A stretch of DNA of 64,000 nucleotides from a virus: IMG/VR virus record IMGVR_UViG_3300034111_001103, positions 62,001 to 126,000 of that record. One strand, written 5' to 3'. Positions within the stretch are counted from its first letter, which is position 1, and each line of letters opens with the position of its first letter. A program made the translations under genes and the position numbers. This document shows, piece by piece, positions 4,925 through 62,082 of the stretch. The notes beneath the pieces were generated by a model that did no database searches, was not told where the DNA came from, and was given only the letters and a program-made list of their open reading frames with translations.

Positions 4925-4967
4925 AACCTACTCTTATTATTAATATATAGGAGTAGGTTAATTTTTT
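4925..4967 (+). terminator. Intrinsic terminator of structured RNA A
   Basis: AACCTACTC (4925-4933) pairs perfectly with GAGTAGGTT (4951-4959) and is followed by AATTTTTTG. It lies before the gene at 5020, with no gene between it and the previous terminator, which supports an independent RNA transcript in between. Confidence 0.8.
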
Positions 4968-5019
4968 GTCTACTTTTACTTTATTTTTTTAAACTCAATA
5001 AACAAACAATTTAAAAATC

Positions 5020-5274
5020 ATGAAAACTATATTATTAGATGAATTTACAAATACAATAGCTGTAGCTTGTTCAGAAGAGCAATGTATAATTAATTATTTT
5101 GACACTGTAGAACATGCTCTTAAAATGTATTCTGATGCAATAATTGACTCTGATTTAGATAAAATTAATATTAGTATTGATAATAATTCTGTTATTATTA
5201 CACTTACTAATCAAAAATTAATCCTAAATAAAGAACAAGCTTATATTTTAAGAAGTGTTCTTGAATCTATTTAA
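5020..5274 (+). CDS. Hypothetical acidic protein
   Basis: An 84-residue acidic protein (MKTILLDEFTNTIAVACSEE at its start) with strand-like alternation in the middle and a helical C-terminus (EQAYILRSVLESI). Its family is unknown. It forms a one-gene unit between two terminators, with an AT-rich leader. Confidence 0.6.
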   Translation: MKTILLDEFTNTIAVACSEEQCIINYFDTVEHALKMYSDAIIDSDLDKINISIDNNSVIITLTNQKLILNKEQAYILRSVLESI

Positions 5275-5280
5275 GTTTTT

Positions 5281-5325
5281 GAGTTTTAGGGGAGATAATA
5301 TCAAACCTAAACTCAATTATTTTTA
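5281..5325 (+). terminator. Intrinsic terminator after the 5020 gene
   Basis: GAGTTTTAGG (5281-5290) pairs with CCTAAACTC (5306-5314), with one G-T pair and a 15-base loop, and is followed by AATTATTTTT. It begins six bases after the stop codon. Confidence 0.7.
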
Positions 5326-5344
5326 AAGAACTCAATGTTTATAG

Positions 5345-5447
5345 GTTAAACAAAATGTAGTCATTTTAGGCTATTTTGAGGAAATAAATTGTTTTTCTCC
5401 TAGAGAAAAATTTACTTTTTACTCATTTTAGTCATATTTTGTTTAAC
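5345..5447 (+). ncRNA. Structured RNA B
   Basis: GTTAAACAAAAT (5345-5356) pairs perfectly over 12 bases with ATTTTGTTTAAC (5436-5447). The centre holds a perfect eight-pair hairpin, TTTTTCTC/GAGAAAAA, with loop CTA (5392-5410). The sequence CATTTTAG occurs near both ends of the interior. No open reading frame fits. It could be a small RNA or a cruciform-forming DNA element. The strand is arbitrary, because the stem is symmetrical. Confidence 0.5.
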
Positions 5448-5832
5448 TCTTTTTACATAACTAATTGATAATCAAGTATAGCATATTTTAGAGTATTAAA
5501 CAGTTTATATTTTGCTAAAAATATTAGCAATTTACTAAAAATATTAGTAAAATAGTTAGTTTTTTAGTTTAAAATGCTAAAAATATTAGTAGAGGAGTAC
5601 CAGGTTACCCTCTATCCTGTTTATCTACTTTAAAACTTTACTATAATACATAATAGTTTTACTATAGTGAAATAATATTTTATATTATGTTTGGTAGCAT
5701 TACTACTCTATATATTGTATTGATTATCAATACTTTATGTTCTTTTTACCCTAAAAATACACTATTTTAGCTAAATTTGCTATTATATGTTGTGTTAATA
5801 TTATTTATATATTATACCTATATATATATTTT
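5448..5832. other. Gene-free AT-rich stretch with hairpins
   Basis: No gene is visible. Apart from the triple repeat it holds a hairpin TAGAGG/CCTCTA with inner GTACC/GGTTAC (5590-5614), a short GTATTGA/TCAATAC hairpin near 5730, and a TATGTTTG sequence near 5686 that matches the Bacteroidota -7 consensus. That last could start transcription of the RNA at 5833, although a -33 TTTG at the right distance is lacking. Confidence 0.4.
5515..5589. repeat. Three copies of CTAAAAATATTAG
   Basis: The 13-base imperfect palindrome CTAA-AAATA-TTAG occurs exactly at 5515-5527, 5535-5547 and 5577-5589. The first two copies are 20 bases apart, near two helical turns, and the third 42 bases further on. They sit in a 785-base gene-free stretch beside a compact hairpin (5590-5614). 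They could be operator or iteron sites, or three small RNA hairpins. Confidence 0.6.
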
Positions 5833-6002
5833 CCCTTTTGTACTAGCTTATTCTCATAAAATAAGTAGTTGTAATATGTAACCTAGATATACTACTTAGG
5901 TGAATTACAAATAGGAGTAGAGTAAATAAGTCAATGTATCAAGAAGCAAGGCTTGAAGTAAATACTTTGATGGTATCTCTATTACAACTAAGTACAAAAG
6001 GG
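5833..6002 (+). ncRNA. Structured RNA C with 12-pair closing stem
   Basis: CCCTTTTGTACT (5833-5844) pairs perfectly with AGTACAAAAGGG (5991-6002). Stacked inside, AGTTGTAATA (5867-5876) pairs perfectly with TATTACAACT (5980-5989). Side hairpins are CTTATT/AATAAG (5847-5865), CCTA/TAGG (~5883-5900) and TCAAG/CTTGA (~5940-5957). This is a multi-branched fold of about 170 bases with no reading frame, upstream of a membrane-protein gene. It is either a small RNA gene or a structured leader of the 6069 gene. The family is not recognised. Confidence 0.6.
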
Positions 6003-31897: not shown

Positions 31898-33094
31898 ATG
31901 ATAAATACAGAATTAAAACCTTCAGAAGTAGTAGAATTATTAAAATATGTAATTCCTCAAAACATAAAATTAGCAGAAAAAGGACATCATCCAGTTGCTT
32001 ATAATATAATAGGAGAACCTGGTATTTCTAAATCAGCTGTAGTAGATCAAACAGCTAGAGAATTAAACACTCATCATTATATATCATTAAATCTTTCAAT
32101 GGCTGAAGTAGGTGATTTAATTGGATTTCCTATAACACAATACAAAGTTTGTAAAAATGAAGAATGTTTGTGGATAGGAGATAAATTATTAAATGATTAT
32201 ATTTTACAAGGTTATCATGCTAATGGAGAAAGTAGAATGAGTTATGCTAAACCTGAATGGTTAGTTGGAAAAGAAGATAAACCTGTAATATTAAATTTAG
32301 ATGATTTTTCCAGATGCTCTCCTATGATGATGAATGCTTGTATGCAATTAATTGTAGCTCAAGAAACAATTTCTTGGACATTACCAAAAGGTAGTACTGT
32401 AATTTGTACTTCTAATCCTGATGATGGGGATGAAAGTTTTTCAGTTACAACAATGGATGAAGCTCAAAAAACTCGCTATATCCCTATAAGAATGAAAGCT
32501 AGTGTAGAAGATTGGGCATTAAACTTTGCAGAAAAAGCTGAAATAGGAAGTCCTTTTATAAATTTTCTTTTAAAAAATCCTGAAATAATAGAAGGGTCTA
32601 ATGTAGATGCTGATGGTAATCATTGTAAAAAAGGAAATTTAAGAATTTGGACTAAATTTTTCCAAGCTTCAGAAGGATTATGTAATAATTTATCTGATAA
32701 TTGGAAGATAGTCTTTAATTTAGGACAAAATGCTGTTCCTCAAGAACATCTATTAATGTTAAATAAGTTCATAGAAGATAAATTAGACAAATTATCTACT
32801 CCAGAACAATTATTAAAGATGAAACCAGAAGATGCTTTAAAAGACTTAAAAACTTGTATTGGTGAAGGTTCTAAGAAAAGAATAGATATTTCTTCCATAA
32901 TGAGTAGAAGAGTTATGAATTATGTGTTAGTAAACCATAAAAATTTCACTAAAGATATGATAAATAATTATGCTGAAATTATGGAATCTGAATATATGAG
33001 TCCTGATCTTGTTTTACTTTCAGTTAAGAAAACTACTAAGTTATTTCCAGAGTTGATCAAGCGAGAAAAATTAATTAAAATATTAACTACTTAA
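31898..33094 (+). CDS. MoxR-type AAA+ ATPase
   Basis: The 398-residue protein has Walker A YNIIGEPGISKSAVVDQ (~34-50), Walker B PVILNLDDFSR (~128-138), sensor 1 STVICTSNPDDGD (~166-178) and an arginine-finger region (QKTRYIPIRM). It then has a helical lid with DALKDLKTC. This pattern is that of MoxR ATPases, which remodel protein complexes with VWA-domain partners. A metallopeptidase-VWA protein (34240, split by an intron) follows in the same unit, exactly the usual partner. It probably works on a phage or host protein complex with it. Four small paralogs lie in between. Confidence 0.85.
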   Translation: MINTELKPSEVVELLKYVIPQNIKLAEKGHHPVAYNIIGEPGISKSAVVDQTARELNTHHYISLNLSMAEVGDLIGFPITQYKVCKNEECLWIGDKLLNDYILQGYHANGESRMSYAKPEWLVGKEDKPVILNLDDFSRCSPMMMNACMQLIVAQETISWTLPKGSTVICTSNPDDGDESFSVTTMDEAQKTRYIPIRMKASVEDWALNFAEKAEIGSPFINFLLKNPEIIEGSNVDADGNHCKKGNLRIWTKFFQASEGLCNNLSDNWKIVFNLGQNAVPQEHLLMLNKFIEDKLDKLSTPEQLLKMKPEDALKDLKTCIGEGSKKRIDISSIMSRRVMNYVLVNHKNFTKDMINNYAEIMESEYMSPDLVLLSVKKTTKLFPELIKREKLIKILTT

Positions 33095-33959: not shown

Positions 33960-34250
33960 ATGAAAAAAGAAGATTACTTAGAAAGTGATGATATAGAAAT
34001 AGCTACTTTATATGCTAATATTATATATCAAGAAAAAGGGTTAATAAATTTACAAAAACTATTACATGATAAAAATAAATATATAGTGAATGTTGAAAAA
34101 CTTAATATTACTGGTAAAGTAAAATTAGTTGTAATATGGCAAAATATAGTAAGTAAAATAATAATAGACCAAACTGAAAAACAACTAAAATATACTACTA
34201 AAGAATTTAATGATTTAATATTAAAAACAATAATTAAAAATGGAATATAA
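33960..34250 (+). CDS. Tandem paralog 4
   Basis: A 96-residue protein with YLESDDIEIATLYANIIYQE at residues ~5-24, a close match to paralog 1. It overlaps the metallopeptidase-VWA gene by 11 bases, so the small paralog and that gene are translationally coupled and may act together. Function unknown. Confidence 0.65.
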   Translation: MKKEDYLESDDIEIATLYANIIYQEKGLINLQKLLHDKNKYIVNVEKLNITGKVKLVVIWQNIVSKIIIDQTEKQLKYTTKEFNDLILKTIIKNGI

Positions 34251-35151
34251 AAAACAAGAAAAAGAATTACAAAATATAATATTTACTATTATAAATAATT
34301 CTAAATTAGTATTTTTTGGATTATTTTTAACTGAAGTTGGTAAGTTTTTTGATAAAAGAATACAAACAGCATGTTTAGCCAAACATCCAAATGCTAAAAT
34401 ACCTGTAATGTTATTTAATCCTGATTTTTGGGATACATTAACTGAAAAACAAAGAATATTCTTAGTTTTACATGAAACAGACCACTTAATTTCTCAGGCT
34501 TTCTTATTCTGTAAAGAATTTGGATTAGAACATCCTTTAGATAATATAGCTTTAGATCTTACTATCAATTCTAGATTAGTAAACAATTATCAAAATGAAT
34601 TAGAATTTATAGAAGGAGGAATGCTACCTAAGATTTTTCCTGAATTAAAGTTAGAAGAAGAAAAAGATAGTCTTTATTATTATAATAAGCTTAAAGAAGC
34701 TAAAGACAATAAGCAAAAATCTAAAGAGAAAGGAGAAGATAGTCAAGCAGGTGAACCTGGCAATGGTAATGGTACTTCTGGAGATAAAAACTTAGATGAT
34801 TTGTTAGATAATCAAGAAAAAATAGATAATCACTCCCAATGGTCAGAGCTTACAGAAGGTATGTCAGACCTAGAAAAAGAAGTTCTTAAAAGAGATATTA
34901 TGAGTAGATTAGATAAAATATCTGAAGAAGTAACTAAGCAAAATGGTACTATACCAAAACATTTAAAAGGACAACTAAACAAAATAACTAAAATAAAAGA
35001 AGTAGTTAATTGGAAATCTTTATTTAGAAAGTTTATTGGTTCTACTATATCTTCTGAAATACTATCAAATAGAAAAAGACCTAGTAAAAGATTTGAAGAA
35101 AATCCTTCTACTAAACATAAATTTAAAGTAAGAGGTGTATTTTTATCTGAT
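34240..35151 (+). CDS. Metallopeptidase-VWA protein, exon 1
   Basis: The 304-residue N-terminal part (before the intron) has FLVLHETDHLISQAF (~75-89) with the HExxH zinc motif of the DUF2201 putative metallopeptidase domain. An acidic and Gly/Ser-rich linker (~155-185) and a helical part with NWKSLFRKFIGSTI follow. It ends in VRGVFLSD, where the VWA domain begins. The last Asp (35149-35151) is the first residue of the MIDAS motif. The family pairs with MoxR ATPases, as here. After splicing, the frame continues without a break into exon 2 at 36523. Without splicing, translation stops at the TAA right after the junction. Confidence 0.85.
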
Positions 35152-36522
35152 TAAAAATTGGCATGGTTTTTGTGTTTTATATGTGGAACTATTTCTCATT
35201 AAGACTAACAAAAATTAAAAATGATTAAAAAAAAAATATGGACAAAAGAAGAAGAAGAACTTCTTAAAAAATTGATAATTGATAAAAAAACAACTGTTAA
35301 ACAATTAGAAAGTATTTTTAGCACTTTAAAATCAAACATTTATAGTAAAATAAAAAGATTAAATTTATCTTTTACAGATTATTCTTTATTAAAAAATAAA
35401 AATTATCTTATAAAAGATGATATTATAACTGATTATAAAAATGGTTTAAATTGCTATCAAATAGCTAAAAAATACAAGACAACAAACACTTCTGTTGCAA
35501 AAATATTAAAATTAAATAATATTAAAATCATACCTTATCATTTAAAAAGTGCTAAAAAATATGATTTTAATGAAAACTATTTTGATTTAATAGACACAAA
35601 AGAAAAAGCTTATTGGCTTGGATTAATATATGCTGACGGAAATATATCAAAAAATTCTTTAAGAATATCTTTAAAAATATCAGATATTGATATTTTAAAA
35701 AAATTTAAAGATTGTATAGAATACACAGGAGATATAAAAATAAGTCGGAAAAAAGATAACATTATTTATGGTAAAAATTGCAATTTTGAAGATACTGCAA
35801 CTATAAATATTTACTCAAAGCATATTTTTAATACAATACAAAAGTGGGGAGTTGTTCCTAACAAAACACATTTATTAACTTTTCCAAGTTTTTTAAAAAA
35901 AGAATTAATTAAAAGTTTTATGTTAGGATATTTTGATGGAGATGGTGGAGTGAGTTTAACAAAAAGAACAGGTGAAATTAACATTAGTATTATAGGAACG
36001 GAAATATTTATTTTAGAATATCAAAACATATTAATAAAAGAGTTAGATTTTAAAAAAACTAAACTATATGAAAGATATCCTGAAAGAAATACAAATACTA
36101 GAAATTTTAATTACGGTGGAAATAAACAATTATCAAGATTTATAGAATGGTTATATAAAGATGAACCATTATTTTTGTCCAGAAAATACAATAAATTAAT
36201 CAACAATGTCAAGAGTCCTGTAAAAAAGTAATTTTTTATAAGTATGTAGTGAATTGACTGGAAACCCCTTAGAGCTTTGTACACTCTCACAAACAGTAAT
36301 GTTTTGTGTATAGTAAAAGAGACAAAGATTGGGCAATCAGCAGCCAAGTATCCTAATTAAAGGATAAAGGTTCAACGACTATTCCAGTGATGGAAGTACA
36401 CTCAAGTGAGTGGAAGTGCTACACACCCTTATGAAAGGGTGATGATATAGTCTAATCTTATAGGAAACTATAAGCAGTTTAATAAACGAATATAAATTAA
36501 CGACTTATATTGAATACAAATG
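35152..36522 (+). mobile_element. Group I intron in the VWA gene
   Basis: The 1371-base intron begins right after a T (GAT) and ends in G before TCAAGT. Splicing joins GAT to TCA-AGT-GGT-TCA, restoring D-S-S-G-S, the MIDAS D-x-S-x-S. The core lies after the nuclease gene: GAATTGACTGGAAACC (~36250), AATCAGCAGCCAAG, GACTA (36377-36381) pairing with TAGTC (36448-36452) as P7, and CTTATAG/CTATAAG capped by GAAA (36457-36474). The 5' guide pairing is less clear than in the tmRNA intron. The TGATGATATAGTCTAATCT segment is identical to that intron's, so the two share a recent ancestor. Confidence 0.88.
35221..36231 (+). CDS. LAGLIDADG homing endonuclease in the VWA intron
   Basis: The 336-residue protein has N-terminal helix-turn-helix segments (WTKEEEELLKKLIIDKKTTV, and ITDYKNGLNCYQIAKKY). 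It then has two LAGLIDADG motifs: AYWLGLIYADGNI (~129-141) and SFMLGYFDGDGGV (~233-245). The acidic catalytic residues are present in both, so it should act as a monomeric nuclease cutting intronless VWA genes. It lies near the 5' end of the intron in the same direction, upstream of the ribozyme core. The nuclease differs in family and place from that in the tmRNA intron. Confidence 0.92.
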   Translation: MIKKKIWTKEEEELLKKLIIDKKTTVKQLESIFSTLKSNIYSKIKRLNLSFTDYSLLKNKNYLIKDDIITDYKNGLNCYQIAKKYKTTNTSVAKILKLNNIKIIPYHLKSAKKYDFNENYFDLIDTKEKAYWLGLIYADGNISKNSLRISLKISDIDILKKFKDCIEYTGDIKISRKKDNIIYGKNCNFEDTATINIYSKHIFNTIQKWGVVPNKTHLLTFPSFLKKELIKSFMLGYFDGDGGVSLTKRTGEINISIIGTEIFILEYQNILIKELDFKKTKLYERYPERNTNTRNFNYGGNKQLSRFIEWLYKDEPLFLSRKYNKLINNVKSPVKK

Positions 36523-36888
36523 TCAAGTGGTTCAGTTAGTAATCAAGATTTAGAAAGATGTAATGCTGAATTATATAATGTTTGGAAAGCTGGAGGAAAT
36601 ATAGATTATGCTAGTTGGGATGCAGAAGTAGAACCTACTAAAAAATATGATGGTAAATTAGAAATTACAAGAACTAAATGTGGTGGCACAGATTTAAATT
36701 GTGCTTTAATAGAGACAAACAACAATTATAGACAAAAAGGTTGGAATTTTGCTATTATAACAACTGATGGATATATACCTGCTATTACTGTAAAAACTAA
36801 AATTCCTACTATGATTATTATAACTGAAGGAGGTTCCACAAGTTTTAATAATCCTTATAATTATAAAATAGTTAAAATTAATAAATAA
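36523..36888 (+). CDS. Metallopeptidase-VWA protein, exon 2
   Basis: Exon 2 encodes 121 residues after the junction: SSGSVSNQDLERCNAELYNV continues the MIDAS, with RTKCGGTDLNCALI carrying the second Thr of the metal site and FAIITTDGYIPAI the third region. A VWA domain is complete only when both exons are joined. It binds a divalent metal and a partner ligand. Its stop is directly followed by the next gene (TAATGG). Confidence 0.85.
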   Translation, partial: SSGSVSNQDLERCNAELYNVWKAGGNIDYASWDAEVEPTKKYDGKLEITRTKCGGTDLNCALIETNNNYRQKGWNFAIITTDGYIPAITVKTKIPTMIIITEGGSTSFNNPYNYKIVKINK

Positions 36889-60834: not shown

Positions 60835-62082
60835 ATGGATAAAATTTGTGGAATTTATAAAATAACTAGTCCTTCTAATAGAGTATATATTGGACAATCT
60901 AGAAATTACAATAAAAGAATAAATGGATATAAAAAATATAATTGTAAGGGACAACCAAAATTATATAATTCTTTAAAAAAATATGGTTTTAAAAATCATA
61001 TAGTTGAATTAGTTCATGAATTAACTTTAGATATTGATCAAAAAGATTTAAATTATTGGGAACTTTTTTATTATAATAAATATAAAAATGAAGGTTTTCA
61101 TTTATTAAATTTAAGAGAATGTGGTGCTAATGGTAAATTTTCAGAAGAATCTCGATTAAAAATGAGCATTTCTGGTAAAAATAAAATAATAACAGAAGAA
61201 CATAAAAGAAATATGGGGTTAGCTCAAAAAGGCAGAAAACATACTGAAGAAACTAAAAAGAAAATGAGTGCCTGGCAAAAAGGAACTATTTTAGGTACAG
61301 GTAAACCTATTTTAAAACTTGATTTAAATATGAATTTAATAAAAGAATATGCTTCTGTAACTCATGCTCAAAGAGAAGAAAATATACCAAAACAAAATAT
61401 AACAGAATGTTGTAAGAAAAATTTACAAAAATTAAAAACAAAAATTAGAAATAAAACAAATAAATTTACATGTAGAGGGTTTATTTGGGAATATAAAAAC
61501 AAAGATAATATGAAAGAAATAAGTGAAACAGGTTATTGGAATGGAGAAACAGCTCATATTCATCATGTACATTGTAAAGAACTAAGTAAATGGATATGTG
61601 AGTTTTTAGAAGAAAATGTAGGTCTAGATTGTCCTATAAGAGATCTGGCATGTGGATTGGGGAATTATCTTAGAGATTTAGATAATGAAGGTTTTATAAA
61701 TTTAGCAGGATTTGAAGCTGATCTTCCAAAACATAAAGTATTTGATAATATTTTACAACAAGATTTAACTATACCTTTTACTATATCTCCTAAAGGAGTA
61801 GTTATAAGTCTTGAATGTGGAGAACATATTAATCAAATATATATGGATAAATATATAGACAATATATGTAATAATTGTAATAATTATCTTATTATGTCTT
61901 GGGCTATAAGAGGGCAAGAAGGATTTGGTCATGTTAATTGTCTTGACAATCATGAAGTTATACCATTAATAGAAGAAAAGGGTTTTAAATTAATGGAAAA
62001 AGAAACAGAGGAAGTTAGAAATATAGATCTTTCAGAAGCTCCTTGGTTTAAGAATACATTATTAATATTTAAAAAAGTATAG
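60835..62082 (+). CDS. GIY-YIG homing endonuclease fused in frame to a methyltransferase
   Basis: Residues 1-~95 are a GIY-YIG domain (CGIYKITSPSNRVYIGQSRN with the Arg on the helix). NUMOD3 repeats come next (SEESRLKMSISGK, EEHKRNMGLAQKGRKHTEET), and a NUMOD1-like part (~160-222) ends in CRGFIWEYKN. Then, without a stop, the class I methyltransferase starts: METGYWNGE-like sequence after M226, with AHIHHVHCKELSKWICEFLE, IRDLACGLGNYLRDLDNEGF and GVVISLECGEHINQIY. M226 (ATG at 61510-61512) is the likely original start of the methyltransferase. The nuclease gene may have been inserted ahead of it and its stop lost, or translation may restart at M226. Confidence 0.8.
   Translation: MDKICGIYKITSPSNRVYIGQSRNYNKRINGYKKYNCKGQPKLYNSLKKYGFKNHIVELVHELTLDIDQKDLNYWELFYYNKYKNEGFHLLNLRECGANGKFSEESRLKMSISGKNKIITEEHKRNMGLAQKGRKHTEETKKKMSAWQKGTILGTGKPILKLDLNMNLIKEYASVTHAQREENIPKQNITECCKKNLQKLKTKIRNKTNKFTCRGFIWEYKNKDNMKEISETGYWNGETAHIHHVHCKELSKWICEFLEENVGLDCPIRDLACGLGNYLRDLDNEGFINLAGFEADLPKHKVFDNILQQDLTIPFTISPKGVVISLECGEHINQIYMDKYIDNICNNCNNYLIMSWAIRGQEGFGHVNCLDNHEVIPLIEEKGFKLMEKETEEVRNIDLSEAPWFKNTLLIFKKV

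Follow-up and report, generated by a model that had tools for sequence, protein, structure and literature searches.

A cochaperone gene of an uncultured phage, coding for a metallopeptidase-VWA (DUF2201) protein, is interrupted directly after the codon for the aspartate of its MIDAS motif by a 1371-nt insert, which we take, with a probability of roughly 0.9, to be a mobile group I intron, possibly of the subgroup IA type, equipped with a LAGLIDADG homing endonuclease. The gene occupies positions 34240–36888 of the window (the whole 64,000-nt stretch of DNA analysed here, part of a 168.9-kb virus record). The insert adds a new and well-documented case to a known class of selfish elements, the mobile group I introns with an endonuclease. 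The interrupted gene comprises:

34240–35151, plus strand: 5′ exon, 304 aa, with the metallopeptidase domain and the first part of the VWA domain, ending with the MIDAS Asp codon (PF13203 DUF2201_N, 1.4e-08; phrog_1314, 3e-28)
35152–36522, plus strand: group I intron, 1371 nt, beginning with an in-frame TAA and ending with AATG (boundaries from the empty site of contig L007)
35221–36231, plus strand: LAGLIDADG protein, 336 aa, with an N-terminal helical/HTH-like region (PF14528, 8e-10; phrog_4645, 5.7e-55)
36523–36888, plus strand: 3′ exon, 121 aa and stop, the remainder of the VWA domain from S-S-G-S (PF09967, DUF2201 VWA-like, 1.1e-04, under the family cut-off; phrog_1314, 9.9e-14)

Both exons align to separate stretches of one family, PHROG 1314, and the HExxH motif of the metallopeptidase domain, located in the 5′ exon, reads HETDH. 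The ORF 34240–35154 terminates with ...VFLSD followed by TAA (35152–35154), the VWA reading frame resumes at 36523 with TCA AGT GGT (S-S-G-S), and with 35151 joined to 36523 a single frame reads D-S-S-G-S. This restoration of the motif had been claimed in an earlier note on this DNA. In L007, a contig of another phage with the same gene neighbourhood, the metallopeptidase-VWA protein is encoded by one 420-aa ORF without an intron, and GTATTTTTATCTGAT directly adjoins TCAAGTGGTTC; since the L007 frame is uninterrupted there, the proposed join, far from being a construct, exists as coding sequence in a relative. The GAT codon 5′ of the insertion point is identical in all five relatives in which the motif was located (L007, L140, the Vibrio phages Va1 and vB_VhaP_PG11, and Sulfitobacter phage phiCB2047-B). 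Gene callers split intron-interrupted genes such as this one. In PHROG 1314, which is annotated as HNH endonuclease, the members seen here are metallopeptidase-VWA proteins; this annotation, which has been propagated into phage records, looks wrong.

The empty site of L007, ATCTGAT|TCAAGTGG, fixes the insert at 35152–36522 and provides the exact base for the insertion into the MIDAS codons that the earlier note had described. The sole ambiguity is a shift by one base (a T is present at both ends), and the boundaries given here were preferred to the shifted ones because group I introns are preceded by U and end in G, a rule that is satisfied by GAU|UAA ... AAUG|UCA. A further contig, L004 (IMGVR_UViG_3300021121_000001), has this intron too, in the identical position. 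The intron RNA would most likely remove itself from the transcript, yielding the full 425-aa protein with D-S-S-G-S; the predicted spliced junction reads ATCTGATTCAAGTGG.

In addition to the empty site, the group I nature of the insert, likewise proposed earlier, is supported by a covariance model: Rfam RF00028 matches 36198–36474 with 87.5 bits (E = 1.5e-22 for a 1.7-kb query; gathering score 50), and the alignment spans the first to the last of the 253 model positions. Rfam scans of the whole 64-kb window (in both modes) and of whole loci listed no intron, and only short stretches revealed the match, most likely owing to the speed filters. Default-filter Rfam surveys of long phage contigs may undercount group I introns. 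The following RNA elements were recognized:

36198–36474, plus strand: catalytic core P3–P9 (RF00028, 87.5 bits)
36246–36251 with 36416–36422, plus strand: P3, GUAGUG with GUGCUAC, read from the sequence
36377–36382 with 36447–36452, plus strand: P7, GACUAU with AUAGUC, read from the sequence
36219–36240, plus strand: P2 hairpin, UGUAAAAAA-GUAA-UUUUUUAUA, in which a G-to-A change in L004 preserves the pairing (G-U to A-U)
36382–36411, plus strand: two small P7.1/P7.2-like hairpins between P7 and P3′, UUCC..GGAA and ACUCAAGUGAGU, identified by eye

The P7.1/P7.2-like hairpins may place the intron in subgroup IA. About half of the introns examined possess, ahead of P3, a hairpin with a GNRA loop and a likely guide sequence 5′ of it, a pattern that the window intron fits through its P2 hairpin. 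The R element is common, at least 119 IMG/VR stretches containing AGGTTCAACGACTATTCC. In the 169-kb record there is a single occurrence of the R-element pattern GTTCAANGACTA, and therefore no second intron of the window type was found there.

The two-motif LAGLIDADG nuclease that the earlier note had read in the insert is borne out by the PF14528 match, by the presence of both motifs (LGLIYADG and LGYFDGDG) and by the predicted fold. In an alignment of five proteins, all encoded directly 5′ of a group I core, neither the motifs nor their acidic residues vary. When the AlphaFold2 model of the 336-aa protein (mean pLDDT 76.7) was used for a fold search, all 13 PDB matches with E < 0.001 were to LAGLIDADG-fold proteins (endonucleases, a maturase, inteins and WhiA); the bI3 maturase ranked best, followed by I-Tsp061I, and I-SceI was also matched. 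A sequence search found no relative of the nuclease in the PDB. Comparison of the window with L004 by the Nei-Gojobori method gave a dN/dS of 0.19 for the nuclease ORF, which has thus been under selection since the two copies parted, and of 0.17–0.31 for the exons, indicating purifying selection.

The metallopeptidase-VWA gene is accompanied by its MoxR partner, as had been supposed:

31898–33094, plus strand: MoxR-type AAA+ ATPase gene, uninterrupted in the window but interrupted in relatives (phrog_1297, 7.5e-27)

The assignment relies on the PHROG match, the Pfam matches to AAA being weak, and such a pair is known in jumbo phages (PMC7824862). In L004 (positions 1470–1780 of the locus) an ORF-less group I intron (73.6 bits) with a strong P1 is inserted in the MoxR gene between GD and LVGFP. 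In L140 (IMGVR_UViG_3300031813_000006, approximately 4952–5995) the MoxR gene contains a group I intron with a GIY-YIG/NUMOD1 ORF (62.3 bits) directly after the Walker B region (LDDFTRAD); the gene is uninterrupted in the sister contig L139, which represents the empty site. All three introns, the one in the VWA gene and the two in MoxR, follow a GAT codon, begin with an in-frame TAA and end with ATG. Judged from these sequences, introns have entered the MoxR-VWA pair at three different positions, all of them within conserved motifs; this is a small sample found while inspecting these genes and not a measured preference. Another ORF-less group I-like insert is present at approximately 1525–1990 of L141, on the same contig as L004, in a gene that we take to be DUF932-like. 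Its core and that of the VWA intron show 91% identity across 164 nt, a likeness which suggests intron spread or gene conversion within one phage. The window also contains, at 60835–62082, a GIY-YIG/NUMOD3 homing-endonuclease-like gene.

The weakest element of the window intron is P1:

36208–36215, plus strand: best candidate internal guide sequence, GUCAAGAG, which may form a weak P1 with exon UAUCUGAU

This candidate falls within the final codons of the nuclease ORF and its pairing amounts to -2.3 kcal/mol (-2.7 for the corresponding L004 stretch, the best placed near the core); stronger exon pairings exist, but far inside the ORF. The 5′ leader of the intron (35155–35220) yielded no guide sequence, and a convincing P10 was not found either. 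GUCCUGU at 36215 was rejected as a guide, as it runs into the P2 hairpin and its pairing is poorer than that of the candidate above. The P1 helices of the MoxR introns are unmistakable (GGGGAU with GUCCCC, -10.6 kcal/mol, in L004; UGCGGAU with GUCCGCA, -12.3 kcal/mol, in L140), and both guides directly precede P3 and are accompanied by P10-like pairings. A 9-mer, AATGTCAAG, is common to the likely guide region of the window intron (AATGTCAAGAG, 36205–36217) and its 3′ junction (AATG|TCAAGTG, 36518–36530). Because P1 is weak and no convincing P10 is present, the efficiency of splicing is uncertain: either the intron is poorly fitted to its exon, or it is helped by a protein, or the true pairing was missed. 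Such help might come from the LAGLIDADG protein itself, doubling as a maturase and offsetting the weak P1, which would be compatible with a mobile intron. The bI3 maturase is indeed the top fold match, and a maturase-like LAGLIDADG protein is known from an intron in Thermotoga 23S rRNA (PMC3984707). However, endonucleases follow bI3 among the fold matches, the protein retains the acidic residues of its motifs on which DNA cleavage depends, and the same kind of intron occurs nearby without an ORF, so that we regard a maturase role as possible but rather unlikely.

As the earlier note had pointed out, reading of the unspliced RNA would stop at the TAA (35152–35154), directly after ...L-S-D. Many group I introns have an in-frame stop behind the upstream exon, which is believed to stall translation and allow the RNA to fold (PMC3984707). 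In the window intron, too, the TAA would most likely halt the ribosome before the folding of the ribozyme is disturbed. The further proposal that both the truncated and the full form could matter was not upheld, since stops of this kind are usual, the MoxR introns also start with TAA and the relatives encode one protein. We see no evidence in favour of a role for the 304-aa form, which keeps a small probability in view of the ATG at the start of exon 2 and the lack of clear Shine-Dalgarno sequences in this phage.

The same junction allows for an intron that no longer splices, in a gene that is simply split and yields two proteins, one with the metallopeptidase and one with the VWA part, the latter initiated at an ATG. 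A conserved ATG does stand at the start of exon 2, in frame at 36520, where the intron ends. Its leader does not argue against a start there, because a clear Shine-Dalgarno sequence was absent at all 26 starts inspected, and the weakness of P1 would suit such a reading as well. Nevertheless, we consider it improbable: the window and L004 both have an intact core, with 98% identity between the copies and the indel in the P8 loop; a VWA part devoid of the MIDAS Asp would be crippled; and exon 2 is constrained like exon 1. Moreover, in every relative in which the gene was seen the metallopeptidase and VWA parts form one protein, and not the separately made VWA protein that the earlier note had named as evidence against its own interpretation. 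Gene starts in the region 31898–53876 have A-rich leaders, as in Bacteroidota.

A switch, in which the metallopeptidase-only form would be produced in early or stressed infection and the full protein later, is very improbable. It could draw on the in-frame TAA at the junction and on the translation-dependent splicing argued for an intron in a T4 RNR gene (PMC11878797), but stops after the upstream exon are common among group I introns (PMC3984707) and the intronless sister L007 manages without a switch. Equally doubtful is the broader idea that different group I introns settle by preference in the MoxR-VWA pair, each at a metal- or nucleotide-binding motif, and that splicing of the VWA transcript serves to switch from the metallopeptidase alone to the complete cochaperone and back.

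The reading as a mobile intron is strengthened by the way the element has spread. Between the window and L004 the intron is 97.1% identical (1367 positions), whereas the exons are only 79.0% and 81.4% identical, and dS (Nei-Gojobori) is 0.10 in the nuclease ORF versus 1.2 and 0.77 in the exons. The intron at this site is therefore much younger than the split between the phages. In a sample of two distinct phages with the VWA intron (the window and L004) and one with the empty site (L007), this contrast in divergence is the signature expected of recent horizontal homing. Vertical inheritance of an intron that is merely more conserved than its exons would account for the shared insertion site, but it is refuted by the synonymous divergence (0.10 in the nuclease ORF against 0.8–1.2 in the exons), unless exons recombine much faster than the intron, and L007 lacks the intron at a similar exon distance, which leaves this explanation with next to no credibility. 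Identity of the exons is not clearly raised beside the intron (81.7% over 60 nt on the 5′ side; 87.3% of aligned positions, with gaps, on the 3′ side), and no long co-conversion tract was seen between the window and L004. Transfer was probably indirect, or the co-conversion tract short.

In the homing mechanism that we propose, the endonuclease would most likely cut intronless alleles around ATCTGAT|TCAAGTGG, and repair of the cut allele would copy the intron in. The codons for Asp-x-Ser-Gly-Ser are nearly fixed in the family, so that a target would always be present, and an imprecise deletion of the intron would destroy the MIDAS motif. The suggestion that insertion at conserved codons serves as a homing strategy is thus backed by the empty site and by the contrast between intron and exon divergence. 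An empty site, an occupied site and the same intron with diverged exons together provide a natural series in uncultured phages.

The closest annotated introns are those of the crAss-like phages cr116_1 and cr114_1 (Crassvirales), the 3′ cores of which are 74% (196 nt) and 73% (168 nt) identical to that of the window intron. As in the window, a LAGLIDADG relative (approximately 36% identity) is encoded upstream of the core. Their host genes differ from that of the window, and their boundaries were inferred in this analysis, not annotated; the cr114_1 intron would lie between GNH and D of a metallophosphoesterase, an active-site motif like the MIDAS site. Matches of the window DNA polymerase include crAss-like phages, at 25–28%. 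Group I introns also interrupt conserved genes of T4 (td, nrdB and sunY). Dense group I introns have been described for crAss-like phages (PMC7886860), and the conserved targets of group I introns are covered in a review (PMC3984707). The introns of Bastillevirinae and other phages share with the window a self-splicing core, with or without an ORF, in conserved host genes, but the Bastillevirinae nucleases are mostly HNH (PMC11878797), whereas that of the window is a LAGLIDADG protein whose ORF lies on the 5′ side of the core and includes the candidate guide in its last codons.

With regard to the host genes, a literature search joining group I introns and MoxR found nothing relevant. The pair of MoxR and metallopeptidase-VWA genes has been described in jumbo phages, where a role in virion assembly was proposed (PMC7824862). 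The window likewise has a MoxR gene near a metallopeptidase-VWA gene with both MIDAS and HExxH, and the order, ATPase gene and then metallopeptidase-VWA gene, is that of the jumbo-phage MoxR-vWA pair and of the ATPase/gp25-like pair of Schitoviridae. Unlike in the window, no intron is described for these pairs in the text consulted. The MoxR-VWA pair, with its proposed role in virion assembly, joins the host genes of phage introns, and the more interesting part is its recurrent invasion at active-site codons.
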